Below are positions 2,436 to 8,463 of a stretch of 64,000 bases of DNA, piece by piece. Location of the stretch: positions 2,666,001-2,730,000 of the forward strand of contig NZ_CP035119.1 of assembly GCF_004087835.1 (NCBI RefSeq), read 5' to 3'. This stretch comes from Halorussus pelagicus (GTDB lineage: Archaea; Halobacteriota; Halobacteria; Halobacteriales; Haladaptataceae). The translations under genes and the position numbers were made by a program. The notes beneath the pieces are model-generated. The model saw only the letters and a list, made by a program, of their open reading frames with translations, searched no databases and had not been told where the DNA came from. Position 1 is the first letter of the stretch; each line of letters opens with the position of its first letter.

Positions 2436-4775
2436 GTGGACGAGACCATCGATTGGCTCCAGGACCGACCCTACTACGCCGGGCAGGTCGAGACCCACCG
2501 GACCCTCCCCGGTCGGGACGGCGACTTCGCCGACGTGGAACTCGAAGGGCGACTGGAGAGCGCGCTCGAATCGCGGGGCATCGACCGCCTCTATCGCCAC
2601 CAAGTCGAGACCATCGAGGCGGTTCGCCGCGGCGAGAACGTCGTCGTCGCCACGCCGACCGCGAGCGGCAAGAGCCTCGCGTACACCGTCCCGGCGTTCG
2701 AGCGCGCGATGGACCACGGCGGGCGCACCCTCTACGTCGCGCCCCAGAACGCGCTCATCAACGACCAAGAGGAGACCCTCTCGGACCTCGCCCGCGAGTT
2801 GGGCTTCGGCAGTCGCGTCTCCGTCGAGCAGTACACCGGGCGACTGAGCAAGTCCGAGAAGCGCGACGTTCGGGACCGGCGGCCGACCGTCGTTCTCACG
2901 AACCCCGACATGCTCCACTACGCGCTTCTGCCCCACGCCCACCGCCTTTGGGACTGGTTTTTCAAGGGTCTCGAAACGGTCGTGCTGGACGAGGTTCACG
3001 AGTACCGCGGCGTCTTCGGAAGCCACGTCGCGCTCCTGCTCCGACGACTCCGGCGCATCTGCGACCGCTTCGACGCCGACCCCGAGTTCGTCTGCTGTTC
3101 GGCGACCATCGGGAACCCCGTCGAACACGCCGCGAGCGTGACCGGGACCCCCGAATCGTCGTTCCGACTGATAGACGAGGACGTGAGCGACACCGGGCCG
3201 ACTCACTGGGTGCTGTGGAACCCGCCGGAGTACGAGACCGCGCAGGTAGGAACGTCGGGCCAGCGCCGGTCGAACCACGCCGAGACCAAGCGCCTGTTCG
3301 CCGACCTCGTCTCGAAGGAGTACCAGACGCTCACCTTCACTCGCGCCCGGCAGGCCGCCGAGCAGTGGGCGATGGAGAGCGCCGACGAGTTGCGCGACAG
3401 GGACCGAGGCGACCTCGCGCCCGACGTGACGGCGTATCAGGCCGCGCTAAGCGACGACCGCCGGAAGGAAATCGAGCGAGGGCTTCAGAACGGCGAGGTC
3501 CGAGGCGTTTGGAGTACCAACGCGCTCGAACTCGGCGTGGACATCGGGGGTCTCGACGCGGTGTTGCTCGACGGCTACCCCGGCACGCGGATGGCGGCGT
3601 TCCAGCAGGCCGGGCGCGCGGGCCGAGGCGACGACCCGAGTCTCGTCGCCCTCGTCGCCGGAGAAGACCAGTTGGACCAGTACCTGATGGCCAACCCCGA
3701 GGAGTTCTTCGCGGGGTCGCCCGAGCGCGCAGTCGTCAACCCCGCGAACGACCAACTCCTGCCCGACCACGTGCTGTCGGCGGCCCGCGAGACGTGGCTC
3801 TCGCCCGAGGACGCCGACTACTTCGGCGAGGAGTTTCCGGACCTCGTGGCCGACCTCGAAGCGGAGGGTTTGCTGGAACAGCGCATCACCGACGACGGTC
3901 TGCGCTGGACCTACGACGGCGACGGCAGTCCCCAACACGAGATGAGTCTGCGCTCCATCGACGACCGCGAGGTGAACCTGCTGGACCGGCGCAACGGCGA
4001 CACCATCGCCACCCTCCCCTTCGAGGACGCGCTGACCGACGCCCACCCCGGTGCCATCTACCACCATCAGGGCCAGTCCTACGAGGTGGTGGACCTCGAC
4101 CTGGACAAAGAAGTCGCGGAACTGAGTCCGACGTGGGCCGACTACCACACCAAGGTCCTCCACGAGAAGGAGATTACCGTCGAGGAGGACCTGCGCGAGA
4201 AGCGACTGGCCACCCGCGAGGACGTGGCTGTCAGGTTCGCCGACGTGACGATGCGCAAGCAGATTACCGGCTTCGAGCGCCGCGACCGCTCGGGCGAGAC
4301 GCTGGCCCGCGAGTCGCTGGAGATGCCCGAAATCTCGCTCCGGACGAAGGCGCTGTACTTCACGGTGCCCCGCGAGGTCGAACAGGCGATGCGCGAGCAG
4401 GGCGACTTCAACGGCGGCATTCACGCCGCCGAACACGGGATGATTTCGCTGTTCCCGCTGGAACTGCTCTGTGACCGCGCAGACATCGGCGGTCTCTCGA
4501 CGCCGATGCATCCCGCCACCGGCAGAAGCACCATCTTCATCTACGACGGCTACCCCGGCGGCGTCGGACTCGTCCGAGAGGGCTACGAGACGGTGTCGGA
4601 CCTGATGGCCCAGACCGCCGAGATGATAGAAGCCTGTGACTGCGACGCCGCGGGCGGGTGTCCCGCCTGCGTGCAGTCGCCCCACTGCGGGAACGCCAAC
4701 GACCCCCTAGACAAGGAGCAAGCGCGCTTCCTGCTGGAGGAACTGACTGGCCGCGACGCCGAGGGGACGGAGTAG
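2436..4775 (+). CDS. DEAD/DEAH-box helicase with DUF1998 zinc-binding C-terminus (Hrq1/MrfA family)
   Basis: A 779-residue superfamily 2 helicase. Walker A is TPTASGKS (residues 73-80), the DEVH box is at about 185-188, and motif VI is QAGRAGRG in the second RecA domain. The C-terminal DUF1998 region ends in a four-Cys cluster ([12 protein letters not shown]...HC). This is the Hrq1/MrfA architecture, 3'-5' helicases linked to repair of mitomycin-type and crosslink damage. Start is the GTG at 2436; there is no earlier plausible start. The gene stands alone on this strand with hairpins upstream. The family is clear, and the repair role is inferred from homologues. Confidence 0.9.
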
Positions 4776-5690: not shown

Positions 5691-6086
5691 ATGGACGACG
5701 AGGACCTCGATGCAGTCCGTGAGCGCAAGAAGCGCGCGCTCGCACAGAAACAGGGCCTCGGCGCGCCAGCGTCGCCGGTGTACGTCGATGGCTCCCAGAG
5801 CTTCGACCAGACCGTGACGGCCCACGATGTCGTGTTGGTCCACTACTACGCCAACGGCGGGGCGGGCCAGCGCCTCCACCCGGTCGTCGAGTCCGTCGCC
5901 CGCGAGACGTTCGCCGCGGTGGCGAAAGTCAATATCGTGCATCACCAGAAGTTGGCCTTGGAGCGCGGCATCGAGGCCACACCAGCGTTCGAGGTGTACG
6001 CCGACGGCGACTGTCAAGAGCGCGTTCGGGGCCAGGTCGAGAAGCGCGAGTTGGTCGAGTTGGTCGGGGAGTACACGTCGTTCTGA
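5691..6086 (+). CDS. Thioredoxin-fold protein lacking the CxxC motif
   Basis: The 131-residue protein has a thioredoxin pattern: strand VVLVHYYANG, then helix, then KVNIVHHQKLALERGIEATPAFEVYADG with the cis-Pro strand TPAFEVY. Where thioredoxins carry WCxxC it has GGAG (residues 56-59), so no redox-active dithiol is possible. A charged helix precedes the fold. It may be a binding or chaperone-like thioredoxin-fold protein. It is followed by converging zinc-ribbon genes on the other strand. Confidence 0.75.
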   Translation: MDDEDLDAVRERKKRALAQKQGLGAPASPVYVDGSQSFDQTVTAHDVVLVHYYANGGAGQRLHPVVESVARETFAAVAKVNIVHHQKLALERGIEATPAFEVYADGDCQERVRGQVEKRELVELVGEYTSF

Positions 6087-6112
6087 ACGCGAACGGAGTC
6101 CGTTCCGAGGAG

Positions 6113-6280
6113 TTACATCGCGCCAGCGACGCCGCTTCCGATGGCGGCACCGCAGTCCGCGCAGGCGACGAGATAGAACCGCTTCGAGGCTTTGAAAAAT
6201 CCGGTCGTGGAGTCCATATCCAGAAACTCCACGTCGCCCTGCTCTTCCAGCGTCGTCTCGCACTCGGGACAGTGAACCAT
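6113..6280 (-). CDS. Small CPxC zinc-ribbon protein, tandem copy 2
   Basis: A 55-residue protein with two zinc knuckles, CPEC near the N-terminus and CADC near residue 42, followed by the tail GSGVAGA. It is a clear paralogue of the protein encoded immediately upstream (6283-6468) and begins two bases after that gene's stop, so the two are surely co-transcribed. The ATG at 6278-6280 is fixed by the alignment of the MVHCP start in both copies. Small haloarchaeal zinc-finger proteins of this size are often regulators or protein-interaction modules. The specific role is unknown. Confidence 0.75.
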   Translation of the reverse strand: MVHCPECETTLEEQGDVEFLDMDSTTGFFKASKRFYLVACADCGAAIGSGVAGAM

Positions 6281-6282
6281 CG

Positions 6283-6468
6283 TCAAGCGGCACCCCCGTT
6301 CGATTTCGCACCCGCGACGCCGCTCCCGATGGTGCGACCGCACTCGGCGCAGTTAGCGGTGTAGAACCGCTTCGAGGCTCTGACGATACCCATCGCGGAG
6401 TCCACTTCTTCGAAGTCGATGTCCGCCACGTCGGCGAGCGAACTGTCACATCCGGGGCAGTGTACCAT
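6283..6468 (-). CDS. Small CPxC zinc-ribbon protein, tandem copy 1
   Basis: A 61-residue protein with CPGC and CAEC zinc knuckles around a conserved SAMGIVRASKRFY segment and ending GSGVAGA plus a short tail. It is the first gene of a two-gene tandem with its paralogue at 6113-6280. It is divergent from the iron-box-controlled gene at 6615 across a 146-base gap. An AT-rich stretch (complement of GACAAAAATCTC, about 6491-6502) may be its promoter. Function is unknown. Confidence 0.75.
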   Translation of the reverse strand: MVHCPGCDSSLADVADIDFEEVDSAMGIVRASKRFYTANCAECGRTIGSGVAGAKSNGGAA

Positions 6469-6577
6469 GTCGGCAGACTATTCAGAGCCGTGACAAAAAT
6501 CTCTTGTGGTAGCGCGACCGGTCCGCCGAGTTCCGTACCGACGACGGCGTCGCAGCGACGCCCATCCGAAAGTTCTT

Positions 6578-6611
6578 TTAGGCCAGCCTAATTCGGATTA
6601 GGTAAGCCTAA
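6578..6611 (+). promoter_or_regulatory. Two tandem DtxR/SirR-type iron-box palindromes
   Basis: TTAGGCCAGCCTAA (6578-6591) and TTAGGTAAGCCTAA (6598-6611) are near-perfect palindromes. They share TTAGG...AGCCTAA and are spaced 20 bp start to start (two helical turns), ending 3 bp before the ATG of the next gene. This matches the TTAGGnnnnCCTAA pattern bound by metal-dependent DtxR-family repressors (Idr/SirR in haloarchaea). Placement over the transcription start predicts repression when iron or manganese is replete. Binding itself is inferred. Confidence 0.8.
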
Positions 6612-6614
6612 AAC

Positions 6615-7061
6615 ATGACCTGCTCCCTCGACGCCATCCGCGGAGAAATCGCCGACCTCGCCGCTGACGGCGGCGATTTCTACGTCGCGTGTGCCGACAC
6701 GGACGAGTGCCCCGCGCCGCTGACTGGCCGGGAGTTCCCTACCGAGGCGGCCGCCAACGAGGCCGCGGACCTCGCCCGAACCTACCGCGAGGCGCTCCGC
6801 GAGACCGACCCGCAACTCCCCGAGCATCGCCTCTCGGTATACGAGCGACCGGGCGACGCGCCCACGCTGGTCTCGACCCGCGAGCGCACCGAGGGGAGAC
6901 GCGCGAACGGTCTCCCCCAGTCCTCGCGGTCGGTGACCCTCTCGGGCGACTGCGAGTCCGAGTGGCTCCGGATGGACAACGCGCCGCTGGTCCACGTCCG
7001 GAGCGACGGCGAACCGCTCCCTGACGACGCCGTAGAGCGCCAACTCGACTCGAAGCTATGA
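6615..7061 (+). CDS. Haloarchaeal protein of unknown function, iron-box controlled (DUF7552-like)
   Basis: A 148-residue acidic soluble protein with no recognised catalytic motif. It has two short Cys-containing segments (ACADTDECPAP), a helical middle, and a C-terminal block ESEWLRMDNAPLVHVRSDGEP ending in a KL dipeptide. The ATG at 6615 lies directly after two iron boxes, so the transcript is probably leaderless and metal-repressed. It overlaps the next gene by 4 bases (ATGA), indicating translational coupling. A paralogue lies at 7972-8463. I suspect a haloarchaeal DUF7552 member. The role may be in iron limitation, by inference from the operator only. Confidence 0.7.
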   Translation: MTCSLDAIRGEIADLAADGGDFYVACADTDECPAPLTGREFPTEAAANEAADLARTYREALRETDPQLPEHRLSVYERPGDAPTLVSTRERTEGRRANGLPQSSRSVTLSGDCESEWLRMDNAPLVHVRSDGEPLPDDAVERQLDSKL

Positions 7062-7879
7062 TCGAACAGTTCCCCACAGGAGACGCGACGACGTTCGAAC
7101 CCCGGACGCCCGCGGCGGTCGAACGCGCGGCGAGCGAGCGCGACCGCATCGCCGAAAAAGTCGCGGCGTTCGGCGAGTTCCGCGAGCGCGTCGCGGCGGT
7201 GTCGGTCACCAACGCGAATCGACAGGGCGGCCGGTCGGCGGGGTCGTCGGGCGGCAGGTCGGCCGGGAGCGCGCTCGCCGTCGGAACGACCGGAGCGGAC
7301 GCGTCCGGCGGCGCGGCGACCGTCCGCGAGGCATTCCGCGAGACGGTTCTACCCTACGCCGACGCCGAGTCGATGCAGGAAGCGATGGCCGACGAGCTAT
7401 CGCCGGAACTGACCGCGGCGCTCTCGCCCGCGGCGGGCGGGTTCTCGACCGGACTCAAGCGCCAACTCCTCTCGCAGGCCGACCAGCGCCGCAAGGAGTG
7501 TCGCCTGCTCGCCGAGGGCATCGAAGGCGAGCGCGACCGAGTCCGAGACATCGCCGACGAACTGAGCGACATGACCGACTGGCTGGCGGACGCCGACGAA
7601 ACACCCCTGCTCCAACTCGGCTTCGAGGAGTTGCGGGCGCGCCACGACCGACTGGCCGAGTTCCGCGCGACCTGCGACCGCATCGCCGCCGAGCGACAGG
7701 CCGCGATTCGGGAGACGCGCAACGACGGCCTGACCGGGATTCGGGAGTCGGAGCTACTCGCCCACCTCTACGGCGAGTTTTCGGACGCTCACCCCGTGCT
7801 GGCGGACCTCGCGGAACTCGACGCCGTGCTGGCCGACTGCCAGCGCGCGGTCCGGAGTCACCTCTGCGCTCGCGTGTGA
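7058..7879 (+). CDS. Helical haloarchaeal protein of unknown function (DUF7260-like)
   Basis: A 273-residue, Glu/Arg/Ala-rich, almost wholly alpha-helical protein. It has a low-complexity Gly/Ser linker at about residues 50-75 and long coiled-coil-prone helices from about 125 to 240 (RRKECRLLAEGIEGERDRVR and onward). No signal peptide or membrane segment is visible. It starts inside the stop of the 6615 gene, so it shares that gene's iron boxes. It resembles the DUF7260 group found beside DUF7552 genes in haloarchaea, but I give that name with caution. A structural or scaffold role is possible. Confidence 0.65.
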   Translation: MIEQFPTGDATTFEPRTPAAVERAASERDRIAEKVAAFGEFRERVAAVSVTNANRQGGRSAGSSGGRSAGSALAVGTTGADASGGAATVREAFRETVLPYADAESMQEAMADELSPELTAALSPAAGGFSTGLKRQLLSQADQRRKECRLLAEGIEGERDRVRDIADELSDMTDWLADADETPLLQLGFEELRARHDRLAEFRATCDRIAAERQAAIRETRNDGLTGIRESELLAHLYGEFSDAHPVLADLAELDAVLADCQRAVRSHLCARV

Positions 7880-7971: not shown

Positions 7972-8463
7972 ATGACAGACTCTCTCGAACACCTCCGCGA
8001 GCGAATAACCGAGTTGACCGACCCCGACGGCGATTTCGCCGTCGTCTGTCCGCTATCCGGTAAGTGCCCGGTCCCGGTCCGGAGCGAGTCGTTCCCCTCG
8101 GCCGACGCCGCCGAAGCGGCCGTCGGTCTCGTCCGCGAGTATCGCACGCTCCTCCGCGAAGTTGACCCGCACCTCGAAAACATCCCCATCGTGGCGACCG
8201 AACGGAGCGCTCCGCCGCTCGCGCTCGACGCGTGCGAGCGAAGCGAGCGCGCGGACGGAACCGAACGCGAGGACGGGGACGAGCGAGCGCGTGAGACCGC
8301 TCGTCGCGTCCGCACCCGCCGCACCGGCCGGTCGATTTCGCTCTCGGGCGAGGGCGACGACGAATGGCTCCGGATGGACGACGCGCCGGTCGTCCACGTC
8401 CGGCGCGACGGCGAACTGCTCGACGACGCGGCGGTCTCGCGGCAACTCCGGTCGAAACTCTGA
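7972..8463 (+). CDS. Paralogue of the iron-box-controlled protein (DUF7552-like)
   Basis: 163 residues, clearly paralogous to the 6615-7061 product. The N-terminal block (EHLRERITELTDPDGDFAVV), the CPLSGKCPVPV segment and the C-terminal block (DEWLRMDDAPVVHVRRDGE, ending SKL) match. It differs by an Arg/Glu/Asp-rich insertion at about residues 83-118, encoded by GAGCGAAGCGAG-type low-complexity DNA. I chose the ATG at 7972 because it aligns with the paralogue. A 92-base gap with no iron box separates it from the upstream gene. Function is unknown. Confidence 0.7.
   Translation: MTDSLEHLRERITELTDPDGDFAVVCPLSGKCPVPVRSESFPSADAAEAAVGLVREYRTLLREVDPHLENIPIVATERSAPPLALDACERSERADGTEREDGDERARETARRVRTRRTGRSISLSGEGDDEWLRMDDAPVVHVRRDGELLDDAAVSRQLRSKL

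Follow-up and report, generated by a model that had tools for sequence, protein, structure and literature searches.

Tandem iron boxes point to DtxR-type control of a DUF7552–DUF7260–DUF7552 operon in Halorussus pelagicus

The closest described counterpart of the sites reported here is the iron box of the DtxR/IdeR repressors. In S. erythraea, the IdeR/DtxR target has been redefined as the 14-bp palindrome TTAGGNNNNCCTAA, bound by one dimer (PMC8464063). Two palindromes in front of a small operon in Halorussus pelagicus have the same half-sites, TTAGG and CCTAA, and the same 4-bp spacing as this one-dimer site, and sites of this kind in the genome likewise lie over promoters of iron-uptake genes. 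The arrangement also departs from the bacterial one: the bacterial iron box is one 19-bp double site, TTAGGTTAGSCTAACCTAA, whereas here two separate 14-bp sites lie 20 bp apart, and the promoter is of the archaeal TATA/BRE type. A second counterpart is the iron regulon of haloarchaea. The DtxR regulators Idr, SirR and TroR are named for Haloferax volcanii, in which a ferR signal is placed before all fhu operons, citing Leyn and Rodionov 2015 (PMC11349517). The types of regulated genes, such as the fhu siderophore ABC systems, are the same as in the present genome, and DtxR-family regulators are encoded here as well. In contrast, the 20-bp tandem is limited to the present genus, and the box pairs at other DUF7552 genes lie 34-36 bp apart.

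The proteins of the operon belong to Pfam families listed without a function. To these families, DUF7552 (PF24422), DUF7260 (PF23921) and the associated DUF7551 (PF24420), the present analysis adds a regulon and operon partners. Our literature search returned no paper naming DUF7552, DUF7551 or DUF7260; the regulon papers Leyn and Rodionov 2015, Schmid 2011 and Martinez Pastor 2024 lay outside its scope, and a prior listing in them is possible. The boxes and the regulon are of a known kind, and what appears to be new is the class-wide membership of the three families, in siderophore operons. The route of iron from a siderophore into the haloarchaeal cell pool is unsolved; haloarchaeal siderophore export and re-import systems are without solid evidence, and strongly iron-induced proteins of unknown function have been listed (PMC11349517). 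By linking three uncharacterized families with the iron regulon and with operons for siderophore uptake, the present analysis turns these genes into concrete, testable candidates.

The DNA analyzed is a 64-kb stretch of the H. pelagicus genome, hereafter the window, to which all positions of the operon refer. A pattern scan found exactly two matches to TTAGGN4CCTAA in it: TTAGGCCAGCCTAA at 6578-6591 (iron box 1) and TTAGGTAAGCCTAA at 6598-6611 (iron box 2), both predicted DtxR-type operators to which no strand is assigned. The initial annotation of this DNA had described two 14-bp palindromes 20 bp apart, and both are exact; the boxes are separated by a 6-bp gap and fit the palindrome TTAGGNNNNCCTAA without mismatch. 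They span the region 4-37 bp upstream of the ATG of the plus-strand gene 6615-7061, with box 2 ending 3 bp before it. The genome-wide scan for the palindrome that the initial annotation had proposed was carried out on exact sites only across 3.49 Mb in 4 contigs, and it returned 22 sites, compared with 2 for a reversed, non-complemented control. Gene calling and Pfam scans of the surroundings revealed that most of these sites head iron genes. Boxes are thus common to the iron-acquisition genes of this genome: they head two IucA/IucC siderophore synthetases; a class-III aminotransferase and a glutamine-synthetase-like gene, both in the siderophore-synthetase cluster; four Peripla_BP_2 lipoproteins, one of which is in an operon with a thioredoxin-reductase (TrxR)-like flavoprotein and a FecCD permease; an SBP_bac_6 protein of the ferric type; an ABC ATPase; and SUF genes (SufC). 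Other boxes head genes that are not uptake genes, namely a DUF5059-plastocyanin, a glucose/sorbosone dehydrogenase, a lipoate ligase and a glycosyltransferase-like gene. Judged from the sequence, the 22 sites are an iron regulon. The earlier assignment to the DtxR/SirR/Idr operator pattern is borne out by the match to the one-dimer consensus, by the iron genes behind most other genomic copies and by the three DtxR-family proteins that the genome encodes. Among the boxed genes, the lipoate-protein-ligase-like gene follows its box at L022:5836-5849; another such gene lies directly 3' of a DUF7552-DUF7551 gene in Natrialba (L130:5945-6850).

Downstream of the boxes, three plus-strand genes form the predicted operon. 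The first, 6615-7061, encodes a DUF7552 protein of 148 aa (PF24422, E=1.3e-26) with 16 same-genus orthologues. The second, 7058-7879, encodes a DUF7260 protein of 273 aa (PF23921, E=8.9e-59), the profile covering residues 18-262 and scoring 199.3 bits (cut-off 27). Its start overlaps the stop of the first gene by 4 bp (ATGA), an overlap kept in 15 of 16 orthologous loci, the window included; the initial annotation had likewise taken the two genes as coupled. That annotation did not include 7972-8463, which encodes a second DUF7552 protein (163 aa, E=4.4e-22). It is a paralogue of the 6615-7061 product (48% identity in alignment), occupies the same position in many genus loci and is the likely third gene of the operon. 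The DUF7552 profile gives 93.0 and 78.5 bits for the two window proteins, so that, like the DUF7260 match, both lie far over the cut-off of 27, and NCBIfam returned no match for the window proteins. The usual DUF7552 form has a DUF7551 part, whereas the Pfam scan found no DUF7551 in either window protein, which are therefore short forms and not of the two-domain kind; they share a conserved C-terminal tail of their own (EWLRMDNAPLVHVR...) where DUF7551 would stand. One more DUF7552 gene, the third in this genome, carries DUF7551 and has an exact box 15 bp before its ATG. Lacking DUF7551, the short proteins may differ in role from the long forms. A possible metal site, a CX5C cysteine pair in the window proteins, was dropped, as it is not conserved in the genus.

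A model of the long DUF7552-DUF7551 form (pLDDT 89) comprises a small alpha/beta domain, a helical domain and a beta part; in the helical domain a Cys, a Glu and a Tyr are invariant and a His nearly so. The DUF7260 model (AF2, pLDDT 85) is a helical bundle. Neither model found a match in the PDB at E<=0.001. H-NOX and phenol-sensor domains came up as weak resemblances of the DUF7551 part (E 0.05-0.3) and were not counted as evidence. In profile searches against PDB sequences DUF7552-7551 found nothing, and DUF7260 matched the 4D2 construct (E 0.003), an uninformative match of helices only. Across the PDB fold and profile searches and NCBIfam, no match gives a biochemical function for the operon proteins. 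Inspection by eye revealed neither an obvious signal peptide nor an obvious membrane segment in sequences of the operon families, and cytosolic proteins are therefore expected.

Across the class, DUF7552 is present in 256 of 391 genomes (roughly two thirds) and DUF7260 in 320 of 391 (roughly four fifths); among 14 control genomes, both occur only in Haloferax volcanii. Boxes were surveyed at 80 named loci of the long DUF7552(-DUF7551) form. An exact box lies within 400 bp upstream in 44 of these, representing 24 genera; since the 80 loci are related and their counts not independent, the genus count is the fairer figure. Another 30 loci have a box 0.4-4.5 kb upstream, and in 23 of the 30 a gene for a siderophore-binding protein lies upstream on the same strand. 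Only six loci have no box within 4.5 kb, and the reversed control pattern was found at 0 of 80 in both distance ranges. Within the same loci, boxes lie near the start of 31 of 49 siderophore-binding-protein genes versus 42 of 529 unlabelled ORFs, the latter rate (7.9%) being itself raised by the richness of the surveyed loci in iron genes. A TrxR-like gene is immediately upstream of DUF7552(-DUF7551) in 14 loci, and DUF7260 is downstream in 22. Two orders are typical: box, siderophore-binding protein, TrxR-like, DUF7552/7551, DUF7260; and box, DUF7552/7551, DUF7260. Immediately before some DUF7260 genes lies a box or a boxed siderophore-binding-protein gene (L063, L081, L087, L090, L091). The DUF7260 family is not iron-only, however, for among its 30 best loci about 12 lack both a box and a DUF7552 gene nearby. 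In Haloferax prahovense (L140, 6018-7019) and likewise in related Haloferax species, an iron-boxed DUF7552-DUF7551 gene faces a UPF0104-like gene. The UPF0104 protein HVO_1859 of H. volcanii is up 11.6-fold in iron starvation (PMC11349517), and its neighborhood may be the same locus.

Taken together, these contexts make it likely that the two boxes are operators of a DtxR-family iron repressor controlling the DUF7552-DUF7260-DUF7552 operon, and that its products act in the iron-starvation response, probably after ferrisiderophore uptake. Because the same sites accompany the families across haloarchaea, often beside siderophore-uptake genes, the operon proteins are very probably an unrecognized part of this archaeal response. 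The initial annotation had put the genes forward as candidates for a new part of the metal-starvation response; the boxes in all 16 genus orthologues and the class-wide association with boxes and siderophore-binding proteins agree with that, and support widening the proposal to a class-wide family of putative iron-regulon proteins with no significant PDB fold match. Iron control appears well supported from sequence comparison, and the biochemical role is a working hypothesis. A cytosolic role after uptake seems most likely since relatives share iron-box operons with genes for siderophore-binding lipoproteins and for a TrxR-like flavoprotein. The products would act in the cytosol at a step that follows ferrisiderophore import, be it iron release, handling or control, perhaps with the flavoprotein as a partner. 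More tentatively, DUF7552, DUF7551 and DUF7260 could constitute a haloarchaea-specific cytosolic machine, its folds without significant PDB match, whose induction in iron starvation would run through DtxR boxes class-wide. It would either remove iron from imported ferrisiderophores, helped by the co-encoded flavoprotein, or pass the iron on; we regard this as possible and give it appreciably less than even chances.

Alternatively, the operon might be iron-controlled while its products, rather than handling iron, contribute to iron sparing or to redox or surface changes that come with starvation. The boxes on the DUF5059-plastocyanin, glucose/sorbosone dehydrogenase and lipoate ligase genes are in keeping with such a role, as is the Halorubrum DUF7552-7551 gene that comes after a boxed DUF5059-plastocyanin gene. 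The commonest partner of the family, however, is a siderophore-binding-protein gene in the same direction, adjacent or nearly so, at 27 of 80 loci from many genera, and we consider the alternative rather unlikely. Exact boxes head DUF5059-plastocyanin genes in this genome (L025:6156-6169) and in Halorubrum/Halopenitus (L102, L103, L142; in L103 and L142 the identity is assumed from size and position), with DUF7552-DUF7551 next in the Halorubrum/Halopenitus loci. It is possible that these plastocyanins reflect a replacement of iron by copper in electron transfer.

All three DtxR-family proteins of the genome (L092, L093, L094) have intact DNA-binding domains with Fe_dep_repress, and L092 and L093 also carry Fe_dep_repr_C. 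L092, the largest, the best-scoring and the sole three-domain one, aligns an Asp with each of Met10 and Cys102 of IdeR and itself matches best to an MntR model, under that model's cut-off; by these Asp residues it looks manganese-type. L093, of 142 aa, lies behind a ferritin-like gene and box-headed SUF genes, and gene order makes it the likeliest candidate for the iron regulator; L094 has 163 aa. The neighborhood of L093 resembles the gene order around TroR, of which it may be an orthologue; Idr1/Idr2 of Halobacterium also belong with the haloarchaeal iron regulon. In an alternative reading the boxes would answer to manganese through a SirR/MntR-type protein rather than to iron, which the Asp residues and MntR score of L092 favor. 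The co-regulated genes, on the other hand, belong to siderophore synthesis, to the uptake of siderophores and ferric iron, and to SUF, no manganese transporter is found among the scanned box-headed genes, and it is a small DtxR protein that stands directly behind the box-headed SUF genes. Control by manganese is therefore improbable. The cluster of box-headed SUF genes (G000:C1:2120927; L093:1001-1926), ferritin-like gene and 142-aa DtxR protein is possibly an autoregulated iron-regulator operon.

The position of the boxes is conserved throughout the genus. At the 16 orthologous loci of 6615-7061, both boxes are exact and in register, at -37 and -17 from the ATG; the ten half-site bases of each are invariant, the N4 centers vary and the sequence farther upstream is unalignable. 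Of 8 genus genomes sampled, 7 have the exact 20-bp tandem, each a single time; among 383 other genomes of the class, none has it. Box 1 overlaps a probable TATA element, TTTTAGG (6576-6582, plus strand), which is invariant in 16 of 16 orthologues; at a fixed distance from it, all 16 have CGAAA or CGCAA, here CGAAA at 6567-6571 (plus strand), as a probable BRE (TFB recognition element). Both assignments follow the general picture of haloarchaeal promoters. The transcription start would lie about 26 bp downstream of the TATA-like element, near 6605 and inside box 2. The palindromes had initially been placed over the expected start site; this holds for box 2 and the start predicted from the sequence, whereas box 1 appears to cover the TATA-like element instead. 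With one box over the TATA element and the other over the predicted start, repression by steric block is likely. When iron is present, each box would be held by a repressor dimer, the one at box 1 covering TATA/BRE and the one at box 2 the start site. Two helical turns apart and facing nearly the same side of the DNA, the two dimers would keep TBP/TFB and RNA polymerase away. Iron scarcity would release the dimers, and the operon would then be co-induced with the genes of siderophore synthesis and uptake, its transcripts having a very short leader, about ten bases long. This genus-specific 20-bp tandem operator presents a clean natural case for a DtxR-type repressor blocking an archaeal promoter.

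The same conservation bears on whether the boxes could instead serve the divergent minus-strand gene for a small zinc-ribbon protein, which starts at 6468, 110 bp away. The boxes track DUF7552, being fixed relative to it in 16 of 16 genus genomes even though alignment fails upstream of them. In L183, L185 and L186 a plus-strand thioredoxin-like gene is directly upstream instead; we have ruled the zinc-ribbon gene out as a target, at a very small residual probability. That the palindromes are chance matches, for which only the shortness of the 10-base match speaks, is a negligible prospect and is ruled out by the shuffles (dinucleotide-preserving; 0.00 expected in the window, 0 of 100 reaching two), the conservation in 16 of 16 orthologues and the genome count of 22 versus 2.

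Other features of the region deserve mention. The minus strand at 6110-6468 encodes two small tandem zinc-ribbon paralogues (MVHCPxC...CxxCGxxIGSGVAGA), divergent from the operon. The thioredoxin-fold protein at 5691-6086 is the upstream neighbor of the operon in many genus genomes; its gene in the window lacks a separate iron box. Farther upstream, 2436-4775 encodes a DEAD-box helicase with an MrfA Zn-binding domain (MrfA/HRQ1-like).
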